Below, piece after piece: positions 55,660-63,706 of a stretch of DNA of 64,000 bases. The translations under genes were made by a program, and so were the position numbers. A model generated the notes under the pieces. The model made no database searches. It was not told where the DNA came from and was given only the letters and a program-made list of their open reading frames with translations. The DNA is from Polyangia bacterium. GTDB taxonomy: Bacteria > Myxococcota_A > Polyangia > Polyangiales > JAUICN01. Position 1 is the first letter of the stretch. Each line of letters starts with the position of its first letter. The stretch covers positions 1 through 64,000 of the forward strand of contig JAUICN010000009.1 in NCBI GenBank assembly GCA_030427835.1, written 5' to 3'.

Positions 55660-56886
55660 ATGTCTACTTGGTTGCGTGGTGGTGCGTGTTTGGGTTCTTT
55701 GATGGGGATGATCGTTTTGGCGGTTGGCCTGGTGGGGTGTTCATTTGTACCCGCGTCGAGTTCCAGTGAGAAAGGTACGTCGAAGCCCCAGGATTGTGTG
55801 GATGTTCTGGGTGCGTTGGATTCTGCGATGTTGCGCGAAGTTCAGGGCGACATGGAATGGATGTTTTCTTCTACTGGGCCGGAATCACTTGCGTTGGAAG
55901 TGCAGGAAAAGCTGTCGAAGTTCAGGAGGCTTTCCAGGGGAGCGGCGGTGGAGGTGTATTCCGCCCAGTGGCGTGACCTTGCGTTTCCATCCCGTGTGGT
56001 GACCGAAGAGCAGGCACGTACTCTTGAGTACCCTTGGGAACTTGGCGTTCAGGTTGGGGACACGGGGTATGGCTACCGGGTATGGTTTGTTCCCGGAGGA
56101 ACGGACAATGAGGTTGATGTCGTCGAATATCGAGTGCGCGATTCAACGGTGTTCGAGGTTCGTCAATTTGAACAAGGGAGTGACTTTTTTGAACTGCACG
56201 CGTGCACGATGGAAGATATCCCCACGGGCGAGGAGGCGTCCCACCGATTGAAAGTTTCGGTGCGACAGGTTGGGATGGCCCGAGATATCCCAGAGGATAC
56301 GAAGTTGCAGTCCCTGGTGAATGGGCTCCTTGCCTTACGGGCGTTTGCCTTCGTGGGCCTTTCAGAGTTGGGTGTGTATGCGCTTCGAGGTTTTGGGACC
56401 CTTAAGGAGCTTGTGCTCTCGGATTCTGGCGTCACGGACAGAGCTGCTGCTGCCATCGCGAAGTGGTTGCCGCATCTTGAGGCTCTTGAAATCCCAGGGA
56501 GTCTCGTGGGTGACGGCGGTTTGGCTGTGCTTTGTCGTAAACTCACGTCGCTTCGGCGGCTGGATTTATCTCGAACTTCGGTGACGAGCCTTGGTGCCAA
56601 TAGGATCCCTTCCTTCAATCCGGGTATTGAGCATTTGTCCATGGTGAAAACGCATGTGAACAATGATTTTGCCCGCCGTTTGTCGGAAACAACGATGCCC
56701 ACGCTTAGCTGGCTCGATTTATCTCGAACTAAAATCACAGGGTTGGGCGCGAAACAGTTGGCTCAACTGGATACTCCCGAGTTGAAGTTCCTATTTTTGG
56801 AAGGTCTTGATCTCGACTACGCTACCCGGTTGGTTCTTGGGCAGGCACACCCGGATCTGAACGTGCTTTCGTTTGAAGAGGACTAG
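55660..56886 (+). CDS. leucine-rich repeat lipoprotein
   Basis: A 408-residue lipoprotein (lipobox VGLVGC, Cys27). The C-terminal half is a run of leucine-rich repeats (LKELVLSDSGVTDRAAAAIAK, LEALEIPGSLVGDGGLAVL, LRRLDLSRTSVTSLGANRI, LSWLDLSRTKITGLGAKQL), each about 24 residues and of the RI-like type. The N-terminal half has no recognised domain. Possibly a surface interaction protein. Ends convergent with ykgJ, overlapping by 4 bases. Confidence 0.85.
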   Translation: MSTWLRGGACLGSLMGMIVLAVGLVGCSFVPASSSSEKGTSKPQDCVDVLGALDSAMLREVQGDMEWMFSSTGPESLALEVQEKLSKFRRLSRGAAVEVYSAQWRDLAFPSRVVTEEQARTLEYPWELGVQVGDTGYGYRVWFVPGGTDNEVDVVEYRVRDSTVFEVRQFEQGSDFFELHACTMEDIPTGEEASHRLKVSVRQVGMARDIPEDTKLQSLVNGLLALRAFAFVGLSELGVYALRGFGTLKELVLSDSGVTDRAAAAIAKWLPHLEALEIPGSLVGDGGLAVLCRKLTSLRRLDLSRTSVTSLGANRIPSFNPGIEHLSMVKTHVNNDFARRLSETTMPTLSWLDLSRTKITGLGAKQLAQLDTPELKFLFLEGLDLDYATRLVLGQAHPDLNVLSFEED

Positions 56887-57230
56887 ACTCGTTCGATGTG
56901 GAAGTCGCGGCGGAACTCGAAGCATTGGGGGCTGCCTTTTTGGAAGTCCCTGCAGGTGGTTCCGCGGATGTCGTAGATTTGGCAGGCGTGGGGGCTGTGC
57001 GGGGTGCTGAGGTGCACGCAGCTGCCGTCCGGGTGGGTGGCAAAGGCTGCCTGCCCAAAGTGGCCGGGTTGGATGGCCTGGGCGATGTCTTCCCTGCCGG
57101 CCTGCCTCCACCGCAGGAGGTCCTCTTCGGGGATGAGAATGCGGCCGTCGTGGCCGGTCCTGCAGCAGGCACCGCAGGTAAGGCAGTCAAGGCCCGATTG
57201 GGCTGGGTATGTTGAATCGGCGGTCGCCAT
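56883..57230 (-). CDS. YkgJ family cysteine cluster protein
   Basis: A 115-residue protein with the Cys pattern of YkgJ: CLTCGACCR near the N-terminus, then CVHLSTPHSPHACQIYDIRG (split), TTCRDF and QCFEF. Eight or so conserved Cys suggest a bound Fe-S or Zn cluster; no activity is known for the family. ATG 57230 is chosen over an upstream start at 57278 that would run into the divergent gene. Only 28 bp separate its start from the divergent TPR gene. Confidence 0.87.
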   Translation of the reverse strand: MATADSTYPAQSGLDCLTCGACCRTGHDGRILIPEEDLLRWRQAGREDIAQAIQPGHFGQAAFATHPDGSCVHLSTPHSPHACQIYDIRGTTCRDFQKGSPQCFEFRRDFHIERV

Positions 57231-57258
57231 TGGCCTGTGGGTGAATATACTGCGGGGC

Positions 57259-58980
57259 ATGAAGAGTCCATCCCCCACCTTTGCGGATCAAACCTGTGTC
57301 CACTGTGGTGCTGAGTTTTTGCGAGATTCGGCGGAACCCGAGCGTTGCCCCCAGTGTTTAAGGGTGGGAGGGGCTGTGGATGCACCTGGGTCACGCCGTG
57401 GGGGCAATATCCGTGGTGGAGCGCGCCGAACGTGGATACGTGGATTGGTTCTGGTGGGCCTGGCGGTTGTGGCCATGGTTGCGGGGATTCGCATTCTTCT
57501 TGGGGATGGATCCGGTGCCCGTATTCGCACGGTGCTGTCTGTGGCGGAGGAAAAGGGGATCGAGCTTCCCGAAGGATGGGAGGAGAAATTTTCCTGGAAA
57601 GGCGTGGCGGATCGATTGAGTTCCCAGGGGTTGGAACGCCAAGCCACGGGGGAGGCTTTGATTGCTGCTGTGAGGTCCTGGTTGAAGGACTCGCCGGTAG
57701 AGCCCTGGCGTTTGAGCAAGCCTGTGGCGCGCCCGTTGTTTTCAATGGACGATGTGGTCAAGCAATTGGCGAAGGGTGACGGTGCGCAGCTTTACCCTCT
57801 TGAGGTGGCCACGGTGCTGGCCTGGTACCTGGGTACGGAAGAGATACCCGTACGGGTGGGTGAGCGCCTGGGGGTGCGGGATGGGACTCCGGTGGATCCC
57901 TCGGGGGTGATCGGTCGGTATGTGCTTGTGGTGGGGGATTCCAAGACCGTAGTGGATCCGTTTGCTCCTGGGGATGAGGTGGCTGCAAAGGATGTGCGCG
58001 TGCTTGAGGACACCCAGGTGTTGGGTGCCTGGATGGGTTTGCATGGCGCTCGGTCCTTTTTTGGTCGGGGGGATGTTTCTTCCTGTGTGCGCTGGTCGGA
58101 TCGATCGTTGAAGTTGGATTCCAGGTCCGCCACGGTTCGGGGGTTGCGCGGGCAATGCTTGATGCGCGTGAGTGGTCCGGATGAGGGCCTTCGGGAGATC
58201 GATGTGGCCCTGAACCTGCAACGGGATGCACCACGGCTGCGTTTCATGGCGGAGGGTGTGCTTTTAGGGGTACCGCCGGACTTGAACCGAGCGGTCGTGT
58301 TTGTGGATGAGGCCCTTGGTTTGGCACCCAACTACGCGGAGCTGCTTGCCGTTCGTGCCAATCTGCATTTGGCCCGAGGAGAAATCGGCCAGGCACGGCC
58401 CCTGATCGAACGTGCCGCTCGATTGGCGCCCGATGCCCTGGGTGTGCCGCTTGCCCGCGCGCAGCTGAGTATTCAATCGAAGGACATGGCTTCCGCCATT
58501 CGGTTTGCGAAACAGTCTACCGAGGTGCAATCCCACGACTGGAATCGGAGAATGGCGGCTGCGGCCATTCTGCGCATGGCGGGTGACTACGATTCCATGC
58601 GCAAGGAAGCTCGCGCCATCCTAGGGATGGTGCCAGGTGCGCAAAAATCCAGAGTGGAGCAGATGATCAAACAGTTCCTCGGGCCCACCGCGCTCGATGA
58701 TACTTTTGGGCAGGGCGATTCTTTCGCAGAGGGTGACTCTTTGCAGGATGCCCCATCTCGAGGTGATTCGTTGCATGGTGATTTGTTGCAGGGCGACTCC
58801 CTGGGAGACCTGGACTTTCCATCGGACGATGGCCTTTCCCTGGGATCGGGCAACAGCAATGACGACCCCAGCTCCCGCCGGGGCCCCTCCCTGTTGGATG
58901 ACGACCTCAAGCTCGAAGGCTTTGGCAACTCTGGTGGCGGTCCCGGTAGCTTCCGCCTATCCGACCCGTCAGCGGAGTAG
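57259..58980 (+). CDS. zinc-ribbon, membrane-anchored TPR protein
   Basis: A 573-residue protein. An N-terminal zinc ribbon (CVHCGAEF ... CPQCLRVG) is followed by a membrane helix (LVLVGLAVVAMVAGIRILLG), an unassigned transglutaminase-like central part (MDDVVKQLAKGDGAQLYPLE, VATVLAWYLGTEEIPVRVGE) and tetratricopeptide repeats (from about 290; RSLKLDSRSATVRGLRGQCL, EALGLAPNYAELLAVRANLH, ERAARLAPDALGVPLARAQL). The C-terminus has acidic GDSL/GDSF repeats (GDSFAEGDSLQD, GDSLHGDLLQGDSLGD). Cytoplasmic ribbon with periplasmic TPR is inferred. A plausible zinc-sensing or assembly factor. Confidence 0.82.
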   Translation: MKSPSPTFADQTCVHCGAEFLRDSAEPERCPQCLRVGGAVDAPGSRRGGNIRGGARRTWIRGLVLVGLAVVAMVAGIRILLGDGSGARIRTVLSVAEEKGIELPEGWEEKFSWKGVADRLSSQGLERQATGEALIAAVRSWLKDSPVEPWRLSKPVARPLFSMDDVVKQLAKGDGAQLYPLEVATVLAWYLGTEEIPVRVGERLGVRDGTPVDPSGVIGRYVLVVGDSKTVVDPFAPGDEVAAKDVRVLEDTQVLGAWMGLHGARSFFGRGDVSSCVRWSDRSLKLDSRSATVRGLRGQCLMRVSGPDEGLREIDVALNLQRDAPRLRFMAEGVLLGVPPDLNRAVVFVDEALGLAPNYAELLAVRANLHLARGEIGQARPLIERAARLAPDALGVPLARAQLSIQSKDMASAIRFAKQSTEVQSHDWNRRMAAAAILRMAGDYDSMRKEARAILGMVPGAQKSRVEQMIKQFLGPTALDDTFGQGDSFAEGDSLQDAPSRGDSLHGDLLQGDSLGDLDFPSDDGLSLGSGNSNDDPSSRRGPSLLDDDLKLEGFGNSGGGPGSFRLSDPSAE

Positions 58981-59039: not shown

Positions 59040-61046
59040 CTAGGAGCCAGGATTGCACAGCGGGCGTTGCTTGTGTTGGGTGGGGTTGGGGGTGATTTGG
59101 TAGGGGAGGATGAGGTCGAGGGGGCCGTTTGGGTTGGGCCATTGCATTTGGGTGAGGTGTTCTTGTACGCAGACGGTGAACCGTGGGGTGAGTAGTTCGT
59201 CTTGGATGAAGCAGTGGGTTTGCAGTTGCCCCTGGGTGGGGTTCTGGGGGTGGGGGGCAATGCGTACGGCCACCTGGAGGTTGCCGCGGGGGTGGATCCA
59301 GGTGATGGGTTGTTCAAAACAGGTTTGAATGTGTGCCCCTAGGGATTGATGAAGCTCCCGGGCCTGGTTGGCGGAGAGGTTTCCATCGGTGGTGCCCATT
59401 TCGTTGGGTGGATTTGGGAGGCCTGCGGGGCAGGCGGAGATGCGGGTGTCGGGGGTGGCCCGGGGGAGTTGAATGCCCTGGGGCGCTGCGGCCGCGATGA
59501 CTGTGTGGGTGCCCTCGGTGCTTGATAGGTGCTTGAGCAGTTGTTGTACGTGTTGAAACCCTGTTTCGCCGGTGGCGAGCACGACCTGCAATCCTGGGAT
59601 GGAACTCGAGGTTTCCAACCGGGATAGGGTTTCGCTTTCGGTGACCTGTGTCTGTGAAATGGTTCGACGGGTGAAGATGGGGTGATCGGGATCGGACTGT
59701 CCTACCACCCACAGCACAAGGTCTGTGGTGGGATCGATGGACCCGGGAAAGGCGGTGATGCCAATGAGGGTGAGCGTATCCTGGGCGGACGCACCGTGGG
59801 CTGTAGTGCTTTGGGCTGCGGGGCTGCCGAAGGCGCCCCACCGGGTGAGAAGCACAACTTGGCTTGCCCGGGCCGCGCGCACCATGATGGCGCCGTCGGG
59901 CTTGGGCACCGGGTGCATGGCCACGGCGGTCTCGCCCACAAACTGGGTTCCCTCGGATGGGCTCTGTTGAAAGAGGCAGCCAGGCGCCGTGTCTGCCAGG
60001 GTCTCAAATTTTTGGTCCAGGGTGGCCAGGTTGCGAATCACCTCAGCCCAGGGTGTGTGGGTGCCCAGTTGCCGTAGTTGTTGTTCGGAGGGGTTCCAGT
60101 CTTGCACGGAGAGGGAAGTGGTTTCGTTGGGGTCCACAGGCGAGCTGTCCGAGTTCCCAGATGTGGTTTCTGATCCATTTGTGGTTTTTGATTGGGCCGT
60201 TGATCCCGTGTTGGCCTGCCCAGCATCGGCCCGGTGGCAACCCGTGAGGGAGGCCGAGAAGAGCAGTAGTGCGCCAGAGGCGGTGAGGATTTGATGCCAA
60301 AGGGTGTTGCGAGAGCGCTCGGCCCGTACCCGCGCGGAGGGTGCAGCGTGGTCCGCACAGGAGAATGGAACTAGGTTGGTCATGGCTAGGGTTGAACTTG
60401 CACCCATGCTTTCCTTGAGTGTCTTTAGGGTTTTGGCGAGTTGGGAGGGGGCGATTTTGTCGGCCTTGGTGGCCACGGGGATGACGGTTGCGGGTGACTC
60501 TGCAAGGAACTCGAGCAGGGTGCGGTCGTCCTTGGAGAGATCGCGACGAATGTCGAACAGGGCCACCACCGCGCGTAGCGTCCCTCGCTCCAGGAGAATG
60601 GATTCCACCAGGTGAGCCCATTGGTTGCGTTCTGTTTTGCTTCGTTGGGCGTAACCGTAGCCCGGGAGATCGATGAACTGCACTGCCGTTTCAGGTTGGG
60701 CCAGCTCCACTAAAAATGCGTTGGCCCCTCGGGTGCAACCTGGGGTGCGGCTGGTGCGCACGAGCTTTCGTCGCTCGGTGAGTGCGTTGATGAGGGAGGA
60801 CTTGCCCACGTTGGATTTGCCCACGAACGCGATCTCTGGGTGCAGGGGTGCGGGGAGCTGATCGAGTTCTGTGGCCGCGGCGAGAAACCGTGCATCCCGA
60901 ACGCGAATTTCCTGGGGCTGCTTTTGTTGCTCCGCGTGTTTGCCAGGGGGTTGTTGAGGGGGCTTTTTCTCAGAAGTTTTCTTGGGAGATTTGTGGGTTC
61001 GTTTCCGAGGTGACTTGGGGCCTGGCTTTTTATTTGGGGAGGTCAT
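59040..61046 (-). CDS. engB: EngB (YihA) GTPase fused in frame to an AgmX/PglI-like lipoprotein
   Basis: A single open frame of 668 residues. Residues about 50-258 are EngB, the ribosome-assembly GTPase: G1 GKSNVGKSS (76-84), G3 DLPG (126-129), G4 TKAD (193-196), a G5-type FSC (228-230) and the usual EngB ending NTLWHQIL. A Lys/Pro/Gln-rich extension (1-48) precedes it. Directly after, GALLLFSASLTGC (258-270) is a hydrophobic stretch with a lipobox, then a Ser/Thr/Gly linker and a C-terminal domain resembling AgmX/PglI proteins (LHQSLGAHIQTCFE, VAVRIAP, TVCVQEHLTQMQWP). An internal ATG at 60407 preceded by AAGGAAAGC could start the lipoprotein separately. Follows murJ by 9 bp. Confidence 0.85.
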   Translation of the reverse strand: MTSPNKKPGPKSPRKRTHKSPKKTSEKKPPQQPPGKHAEQQKQPQEIRVRDARFLAAATELDQLPAPLHPEIAFVGKSNVGKSSLINALTERRKLVRTSRTPGCTRGANAFLVELAQPETAVQFIDLPGYGYAQRSKTERNQWAHLVESILLERGTLRAVVALFDIRRDLSKDDRTLLEFLAESPATVIPVATKADKIAPSQLAKTLKTLKESMGASSTLAMTNLVPFSCADHAAPSARVRAERSRNTLWHQILTASGALLLFSASLTGCHRADAGQANTGSTAQSKTTNGSETTSGNSDSSPVDPNETTSLSVQDWNPSEQQLRQLGTHTPWAEVIRNLATLDQKFETLADTAPGCLFQQSPSEGTQFVGETAVAMHPVPKPDGAIMVRAARASQVVLLTRWGAFGSPAAQSTTAHGASAQDTLTLIGITAFPGSIDPTTDLVLWVVGQSDPDHPIFTRRTISQTQVTESETLSRLETSSSIPGLQVVLATGETGFQHVQQLLKHLSSTEGTHTVIAAAAPQGIQLPRATPDTRISACPAGLPNPPNEMGTTDGNLSANQARELHQSLGAHIQTCFEQPITWIHPRGNLQVAVRIAPHPQNPTQGQLQTHCFIQDELLTPRFTVCVQEHLTQMQWPNPNGPLDLILPYQITPNPTQHKQRPLCNPGS
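60402..60417 (-). promoter_or_regulatory. internal ribosome-binding site within engB
   Basis: Minus strand AAGGAAAGC-ATG (ATG at 60407-60405, residue 214 of the fusion). The AAGGA core is correctly spaced for initiation. It would produce a 455-residue protein whose first 57 residues reuse the EngB C-terminus as n-region and hydrophobic core of a lipoprotein signal ending at Cys270. Confidence 0.45.
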
Positions 61047-61055
61047 GTGTTGTTT

Positions 61056-62654
61056 TCAGTTGCGCTTGAGGCGGCGATTGAATGCTCCCAGCAGTTCCTT
61101 GGATTCTTCCACGCGGATCATCTGGGCTGTGCCTATGTAGAGCATGACCCACCCCAGGACCATGGCGAATAGGACGGAGACACGCATCCAAAGGGGGGTG
61201 CTGGGGATCCAGGGGATCCAATCCTTTGCGACATATGCGAGGATGGCGGCGGGTGTTGTGGCCACGGCGTGGCGGAGCACGGCTTTTGGAACCGAGAGGT
61301 TGATGGCCCCGGGAATGTGCCGCTTGGTGAGCATGAGTAGGGTGATGAGCTGTGCGATGGCTCCGGCTGTGATGGCCATGGCGAGGCCCTGGGTGCCGAT
61401 GGAGAAAAGGGTGCCCCAGGCGACCAGGCCAAAGATGATCAGATTCACAATGGCCCCCACCACCGGGCTGCGCGTGTCCTGGTGGGCGTAGAAGATGGGT
61501 ACGGTGGTTCGGCAGGTGGCCACAGCCAGGATCCCCAGGGCCATCCAACGTAGGGTGAGTGTGGTCTCGTGAACGTGCGCCTCATGGAATGCACCATGCC
61601 CAAATAGGGTGGCCACGATGGGTTGGCTGAGGATCCAGAGGGCGGCGGAGGAAGGTACCGCCAGGAACGCGGTGAGTTTGAGGTTCTTGCGGAACGCCTG
61701 GCGCAGGCCATGCCGGTCATTTTTTGCCCGAAGGGCACTCAGTGCAGGAAGGGAAGCGGTGGCGATGGCAAGGGCAAACATGCCCTGGGGGATCTCCACC
61801 AGGCGTTGGCTGTAGTAGAGGTAGCTTTGGGCGCCCTCGGGGAGGTAGGAGGCCAGTAGACGCGCGAGCAGAATGTTGATTTGGTAGACGGCACCGCCAG
61901 CGATGAGCGGCACCATGAGTTTCAGGGCACGGCGTACATGGGTGTCGGTTTTTCCGTTGTAGAGTTGTTTCCAGACGGACCAACGGGGCCATGCAAGCAA
62001 CCCGGTGGTGCGGAGGGCGGGTGCCTGTACCAGTACGTGCAGGGTTCCCCCGAGGAGGGCGGCCCAGGCCAATACCTGAATCCCCTGCTTTGGGTCCATG
62101 GTGGTGAGTGCGGAGAAGAGCGCCGCGCCGATGAGGCATAGGTTGAGAAAGGCAGGGGCAAAGGCGGGCGGAGCAAAGCGATGGTGGGCGTGCAGGCCGC
62201 CGGTGAAGATGGCGGCAAAGCCCATCAAAAAGAGATAGGGAAAAAGTACGCGCGTGAGTTCCACCGTGGTTTCAAATCGATCGGCGGTGTAGCCCGGGGC
62301 ATAGAGCTGTACGATCCAGGGGGCACCCATGCTGCCCGCAATACTCAGGGCCAGCAGTACCACCACCATGACGGCCATGAGGCCACGAAAAAACGCACGG
62401 GCCTGTGCCGCGCCCTGCTGGTGTTTGACCTCGGTGTACACGGGAATGAGTGCGGCGGACACCGTGCCCTCGGCGACGATGGCCCGAAAGGTGTTGGGTA
62501 TGGTGAAGGCCACGAAGAAGGCGTCGGTGAGGGCCACCGGAAAGCTTGCGGCTAGGGCCACGTCACGTGCGGCTCCCAGGACCCGGGAGGTGAGGGTGCC
62601 GCTGGCAACAGTGGCGGCGCGGCGTGTGACCGCCTGGGAGGAGGATGGGCTCAC
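61056..62654 (-). CDS. murJ: lipid II flippase MurJ
   Basis: A 532-residue inner-membrane protein of the MviN/MurJ family with about 14 helices. Characteristic segments are [40 protein letters not shown] (the PNTFR-type motif), [12 protein letters not shown] and the [22 protein letters not shown] segment. GTG 62654 overlaps the tdh stop (GTGA). Flips lipid II for peptidoglycan synthesis. Confidence 0.95.
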
Positions 62655-63706
62655 GGGATGGATTGGGTTGCGGGGGTGCTTGCACCCCATTCAAGCAGGA
62701 CTTTCCCGCAGTCTCCAGAGGTCATGACCTCAAATGCACGTTCGAAGTCGTCCGCGGGGAACCGGTGGGTGAGCACGGGGGCAATGTGGAGGCCGCTTTG
62801 CAACATGCTGGACATCTTGTACCAGGTTTCGAACATTTCCCGACCGTAGATTCCCTTGAGCGCCAGCCCCTTGAAGATGACCTGGTTCCAATCGATGGTG
62901 ATGTCGGATGGCGGAATGCCGAGCAGGGCCATGCGGCCGCCGTGGTTCATGGTTTTCAACATGGTTTGTAGGGCGGTGCCGTTGCCGCTCATCTCCAGGC
63001 CCACGTCGAATCCTTCGGTCATGCCCAGGGCGTTCATGGCGTCGTGCACGGACTCGGTTTGTACGTTCACTGCCCTGGAGGCCCCAAGCTTGCGGGCGAG
63101 GTCAAGGCGCATGTCATGGACGTCTGTGATGACCACGTGCCGCGCACCCACGTGCTTGGCCACGGCCACCGCCATGATGCCAATGGGGCCAGCTCCGGTG
63201 ATCAGCACATCTTCGCCCACAAGATCAAAGGCCAGGGTGGTGTGTACGGCGTTGCCCAGGGGATCCAGAAAAGACGCGATGTCGTCGTTGATGGCGTCCG
63301 GGAGTTTGAAGGCGTTTCCGGCGGGAATGCAAAGGTACTCAGCGAAGGCACCGTCCCGTTGGATTCCGAGGCCCACGGTGTTTCGGCATAGGTGGCGCTT
63401 GCCCGCCCGGCAGTTGCGGCAGTGACCGCAGGTCATGTGGCCCTCGCCCGAAACCCGGTCGCCAACCTGAAAACCTTCCACGTGGCTGCCCACTTCCACC
63501 ACGTGCCCACAGAACTCGTGGCCGGTGATGGTGTCCAGGGGGACGTTGTTCTGGGCCCACTCATCCCATTTGTGGATGTGAAGATCGGTGCCACAGACGG
63601 CGGTTTTGTGGACCTGCACCAATAGATCGTTGGGCCCTGCGGTGGGAATGGGACGATCTTCCATCCAAAGTCCCGGTGCGTTCTTCGCTTTGACGAGTGC
63701 TTTCAC
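62651..63706 (-). CDS. tdh: L-threonine 3-dehydrogenase
   Basis: A 351-residue zinc-dependent medium-chain dehydrogenase converting threonine to 2-amino-3-ketobutyrate (E. coli Tdh is 341). Landmarks: [20 protein letters not shown] at the start, the catalytic zinc ligands [16 protein letters not shown] (split), [12 protein letters not shown], the structural four-Cys zinc loop [15 protein letters not shown], and the NAD site [19 protein letters not shown]. Start at GTG 63706, which begins the family N-terminus and has GGGAG upstream. Overlaps murJ by 4 bases. Confidence 0.94.

Follow-up and report, generated by a model that had tools for sequence, protein, structure and literature searches.

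The window, by which we mean the whole 64,000-nucleotide stretch of DNA analysed here, carries on its minus strand an uninterrupted frame of 668 codons (61046..59040), the translation of which has its sole stop at the far end. Read in order, this frame encodes a complete EngB GTPase, a signal-peptide core with the lipobox LTGC (Cys270), and a lipoprotein with an AgmX/PglI-type C-terminal domain. An earlier note on this DNA had described EngB as running without a stop into a lipoprotein, and the frame is as it was described there. The features of the locus are listed below.

61056..62690, minus strand: murJ, the upstream gene of a conserved murJ-engB pair, 9 bases before the fusion (Pfam MurJ, 344 bits; murJ-engB order in many relatives)
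59040..61046, minus strand: EngB-lipoprotein fusion, one open frame of 668 aa, frame 0 being the best-coding frame across the whole joint
60903..61046, minus strand: basic, proline-rich N-terminal extension of EngB, aa 1-48, ahead of the family match, which begins at aa 48-52
60273..60902, minus strand: EngB/YsxC GTPase domain, aa 49-258 (TIGR03598, PDB 1sul and other EngB structures, alignment, model)
60405..60407, minus strand: possible internal start ATG (aa 214) with AAGGA 4 bases before it, a site no better than chance
60381..60383, minus strand: second in-frame ATG (aa 222), without a ribosome site
60240..60290, minus strand: hydrophobic segment and lipobox, ILTASGALLLFSASLTG, aa 253-269, overlapping the end of the last EngB helix, with cleavage expected before Cys270
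59043..60239, minus strand: mature lipoprotein part, aa 270-668, with an S/T-rich linker and an AgmX/PglI (TonB-C-like) C-terminal domain at about aa 540-660 (orthologues, NF033768 in 14 orthologues, model)
57004..58980, plus strand: TPR protein, convergent neighbour, in the same place in relatives
56883..57278, minus strand: CxxCxxCC (YkgJ-like) gene, conserved neighbour, used in the synteny survey

The mechanical start of the TPR gene (GTG 57004) overlaps the opposite CxxCxxCC gene, and the true start probably lies at about 57250 or further on. At 55660-56886 lies a leucine-rich-repeat protein with an N-terminus that reads as a lipoprotein signal (LAVGLVGC).

The EngB half

In those bacteria where it has been studied, EngB binds the ribosome, acts in its assembly and is essential. 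The S. aureus protein, YsxC, binds the 50S subunit, and ribosome assembly depends on it (PMC2811118). The NCBIfam model TIGR03598 (EngB/YsxC/YihA) matches aa 52-229 of the window protein with 175.3 bits against a cut-off of 124.45, and the best solved relative of this half is YsxC 1sul (E 7e-31). Translation and alignments show that all the GTP-binding motifs are present (G1 GKSNVGKSS, G2 TPGCT, G3 DLPGYG, G4 TKAD, G5 PFSC). Residues 49-258 are like other EngB proteins in matching the family model and carrying these motifs; unlike them, the window protein has a 48-residue basic N-terminal extension, a 10-residue insertion after G5 and no stop after the last helix, and carries a fused membrane segment and lipoprotein. 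The extension (60903-61046) is also lysine-rich, and the coding signal is weak over its first 30 codons. The insertion falls in the stretch after the G5 motif, SCADHAAPSARVRAERSRNTLW (60305-60362), which is without the TGxG typical of most relatives. The EngB of one relative (L016) likewise has no TGxG, and as frame 0 is still the best-coding frame, we dropped the missing motif as a sign of a frameshift. A second engB that could rescue the cell was also considered and rejected, as the genome was found to hold one copy only.

The last helix of EngB is RNTLWHQILTASG, which in an alignment with 23 relatives lines up with their C-terminal ends, e.g. ALWKRILSVSSI. The earlier note gave LWHQIL (codons 60302-60287) as the point where family proteins end. 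The alignment bears this out with some slack, as the relatives end there plus up to ~20 further residues. An early ending after the last helix is the usual habit of EngB and lies outside the family model; in the window, there is no stop until after aa 668.

The joint and the lipoprotein half

Past the last EngB helix, the frame continues into ALLLFSASLTGC, a signal core with a lipobox, and then into a 399-residue protein. The lipobox pattern [LVI][ASTVI][GAS]C is found behind the hydrophobic core as LLLFSASLTGC, with Cys270 at codon 60239, so that a lipobox-bearing hydrophobic segment does follow EngB directly, as claimed earlier. Its cysteine is expected within ~15-40 residues of a start and here lies at position 270 or, counted from the possible internal starts, at 57 or 49. 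AlphaFold2, run with 23 sequences, gave a confident GTPase with a last helix at 236-257 and a further helix at 259-269 at low confidence; the pLDDT of the final EngB helix is ~84-93 up to aa 260, and the helix continues into the signal core. The suggestion that the hydrophobic signal draws on the end of the C-terminal EngB helix is thus supported both by the alignment and by the helix continuity in the model.

In the same model the C-terminal domain of the lipoprotein part (~540-655) is mostly confident and the middle of this part is not. Of the 183 other genomes of the order, 18 carry a stand-alone relative of the lipoprotein, with 23-31% identity over the part that matches, and class genomes outside the order's own gave no match. 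To judge by the names borne by relatives (Sandaracinaceae, Polyangiaceae or Myxococcales), this order is probably Polyangiales. When the window copy was aligned with 14 stand-alone orthologues, 16 columns were invariant, several cysteines among them. NF033768, the AgmX/PglI C-terminal domain, is matched by 14 of these 15 sequences at E <= 0.01 (best 1.6e-13), the exception being the window copy at 12.4 bits against a cut-off of 40. The AgmX/PglI label that the earlier note attached to this domain is therefore not significant for the window protein alone and holds by way of the aligned orthologues. Like a stand-alone lipoprotein with this domain (myxo_SS_tail), aa 270-668 align over their length and have the conserved cysteines and an RQRxxC-type end, and in several relatives the stand-alone gene is a neighbour of engB; unlike it, the window copy has no start codon or signal peptide of its own, its signal core is fused to EngB, and it scores below the NF033768 cut-off.

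An alternative reading is that the lipoprotein half is no longer exported or functional and that EngB simply carries a tolerated tail. The lipobox is far from any N-terminus, and the lipoprotein gene is undetectable in most genomes of the order, suggesting that the lipoprotein is dispensable. Against this, the frame stays open for another 399 codons with normal codon bias, the cysteines are conserved and the signal core is intact, all of which speaks for ongoing selection, and we regard a dead tail as very unlikely. Both halves are intact: EngB has every G motif, and the lipoprotein keeps the 16 invariant columns, including the cysteines, common to the 14 orthologues.

Gene order in relatives and the origin of the fusion

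In the relatives that have both genes at one locus, engB and the lipoprotein gene are separate. Two loci (L081 in G007 and L035 in G038) have the order engB, START-like gene, reversed MepA-like gene and lipoprotein, with engB and the lipoprotein gene co-oriented. At a third (L036 in G053), the co-oriented pair is separated by a reversed mepA-like gene plus one other. The fourth (L109) has engB, mepA, lipoprotein, TPR gene and YkgJ-like gene, which is the window order plus mepA, with mepA alone found in between. The START and MepA names are our reading of the sequences and not the result of a family search. The gap from the engB match to the lipoprotein match is 961 to 1799 bases at these four loci and minus 27 in the window, where the two profile matches overlap. 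At L100, L102, L107, L108, L113, L117, L122, L131 and similar loci, forming one large group, no lipoprotein was found, and engB and the TPR gene are immediate convergent neighbours.

Since the window has the order of these relatives without the intervening genes, the fusion most likely arose when these genes were lost. The ancestral order would have been murJ, engB, one or two further genes (among them a reversed mepA-like one) and a co-oriented lipoprotein gene. With the intervening DNA lost, the codons of the last engB helix would have come to run in frame into the signal core and lipobox of the lipoprotein. Loss of that segment would also be the reason why engB is left without a stop and the lipoprotein without a start.

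The fusion is known from one metagenome-assembled genome (MAG), the sole member of its family in the genome set. EngB was matched in 168 other genomes of the order, and none of the matches listed continues into the lipoprotein; the same joint was not seen among the matches listed for the 183 other genomes of the order, a set that may omit very near genomes. Scans of genome contigs and viral contigs likewise gave no EngB-lipoprotein joint. Occurrence in a single MAG, with the two genes separate in all relatives seen among the matches listed, would also be expected if the frame came from an assembly or sequencing error and the genes were separate in the living organism, and the departure of EngB from its family after G5 (the insertion and the absent TGxG) could be read in the same way. 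The earlier note had held that clearly separated homologues would mark the frame as a sequencing error. They are indeed separate; yet the joint is co-linear with relatives and the coding frame continuous, which points to a fusion by gene loss and not to a base-calling error.

Several further observations bear on this point. Stepwise codon log-odds across residues 181-280 are best for frame 0 throughout and negative for the other two frames. After LWHQIL, the next stops in both other frames come ~240 bases downstream and neither frame resembles an EngB end, so a single indel would give neither a tidy EngB end nor two tidy genes, and we rejected a frameshift or missed stop on these two grounds. 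Were a single substitution to restore a stop, the lipoprotein would still have no start close by. A chimeric contig was rejected on the co-linearity of the two flanks with relatives: murJ upstream and the TPR and CxxCxxCC genes beyond stand as they do there, which together with the coding signal of frame 0 makes a chimera or an indel unlikely. It is improbable that a false join would by chance have kept both the last EngB helix and the signal core in frame, and the MAG is 98% complete and 0% contaminated. Homologues of both genes that intervene in L081, which would be the missing ones, sit elsewhere in the assembly (START-like, E 7e-43, on C3; MepA-like, E 5.5e-24, on C1). Taken together, these data make an error an unlikely source of the fusion. 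The START-like homologue of this genome adjoins a frame that weakly matches the lipoprotein profile, at 40 bits (L096:6903-8262; G000:C3, ~166902-168261).

One polypeptide or two products

The earlier note further proposed that an internal start would let the same DNA encode a second product, its signal peptide made from the EngB C-terminus. Only two in-frame ATG, GTG or TTG codons lie between the GTPase core and the lipobox, ATG 60407 and ATG 60383, and either could yield a separate lipoprotein besides the full-length fusion. Both are followed by basic residues and by the hydrophobic core. In Salmonella, in-frame starts are documented to yield N-terminal proteoforms, and a signal peptide is what distinguishes some of them (PMC11005335), which we count in favour of such a gene within a gene. 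The proposed AAGGAAAGC-ATG at 60407 is present, with AAGGA at 4 bases and a duplex of -5.2 kcal/mol; among the ORFs of the window, only 14% have a first start that reaches this value. An equal or better site, however, is found at 23% of the 364 internal in-frame ATGs in the window. As the first ATG of the fusion has no ribosome site, ribosome sites say little here. An internal start would give a signal peptide of 56 or 48 residues, as opposed to roughly 18-35 in most orthologues, and the candidate start is seen in a single genome. With a chance-level site and an abnormally long signal peptide, the second product finds no positive support, and we think its existence doubtful.

We instead consider it probable, if by no great measure, that this is a real gene fusion via loss of intervening DNA whose product is one polypeptide, with EngB inside and the lipoprotein domain exported. 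Against it stand the occurrence in a single MAG and the position of Cys270 outside the usual lipobox limit (about the first 40 residues). In such a polypeptide EngB would stay cytoplasmic and aa 253-269 would act as an internal signal crossing the inner membrane. The hydrophobic core has the basic stretch RVRAERSR on its EngB side. Under the positive-inside rule, basic residues on the inside fit an N-in, C-out segment; RVRAERSR would remain inside and the lipoprotein domain would be exported. The genome encodes LspA (PF01252, one hit) and Lgt-family proteins (PF01790, two hits), and Lgt may lipidate Cys270 while LspA may cut at Gly269/Cys270. After such a cut, EngB would be left with a short membrane tail and the lipoprotein would be freed.

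It had been argued that a cytoplasmic ribosome-assembly GTPase cannot easily also be a lipidated envelope protein. Proteins of the ToxR/CadC type are bitopic, with a cytoplasmic N-terminal domain, one membrane segment and an exported C-terminal domain. The contradiction is weaker than stated, given that this topology is known, and the window protein would resemble the type if the proposed N-in/C-out arrangement with one hydrophobic segment is right. It differs in that its N-terminal domain is a ribosome-assembly GTPase and its segment ends in a lipobox. If cleavage occurs, a second likeness would be to Bradyrhizobium FbcH, a polyprotein cut at an internal signal sequence, as one gene would give two products split by signal-peptide processing. 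Here the protease would be signal peptidase II (LspA), and the halves are functionally unrelated. A literature search on polyproteins and internal lipoboxes returned no pertinent match.

It is possible, and we put this forward tentatively, that the only EngB of this organism is a membrane-spanning precursor with an internal lipobox, a possible cleavage site of signal peptidase II, in which case the supply of the two halves would be coupled 1:1 and ribosome maturation would be tethered, at least briefly, to the inner membrane. The locus illustrates how a fusion may arise by the loss of intervening genes, with the last helix of a domain doubling as part of a signal sequence. If the proposed arrangement is true, it would offer a natural example of a signal-peptidase II polyprotein, and an organism whose only EngB copy is joined to a membrane segment and exported domain would put to the test how freely an essential GTPase can be located.
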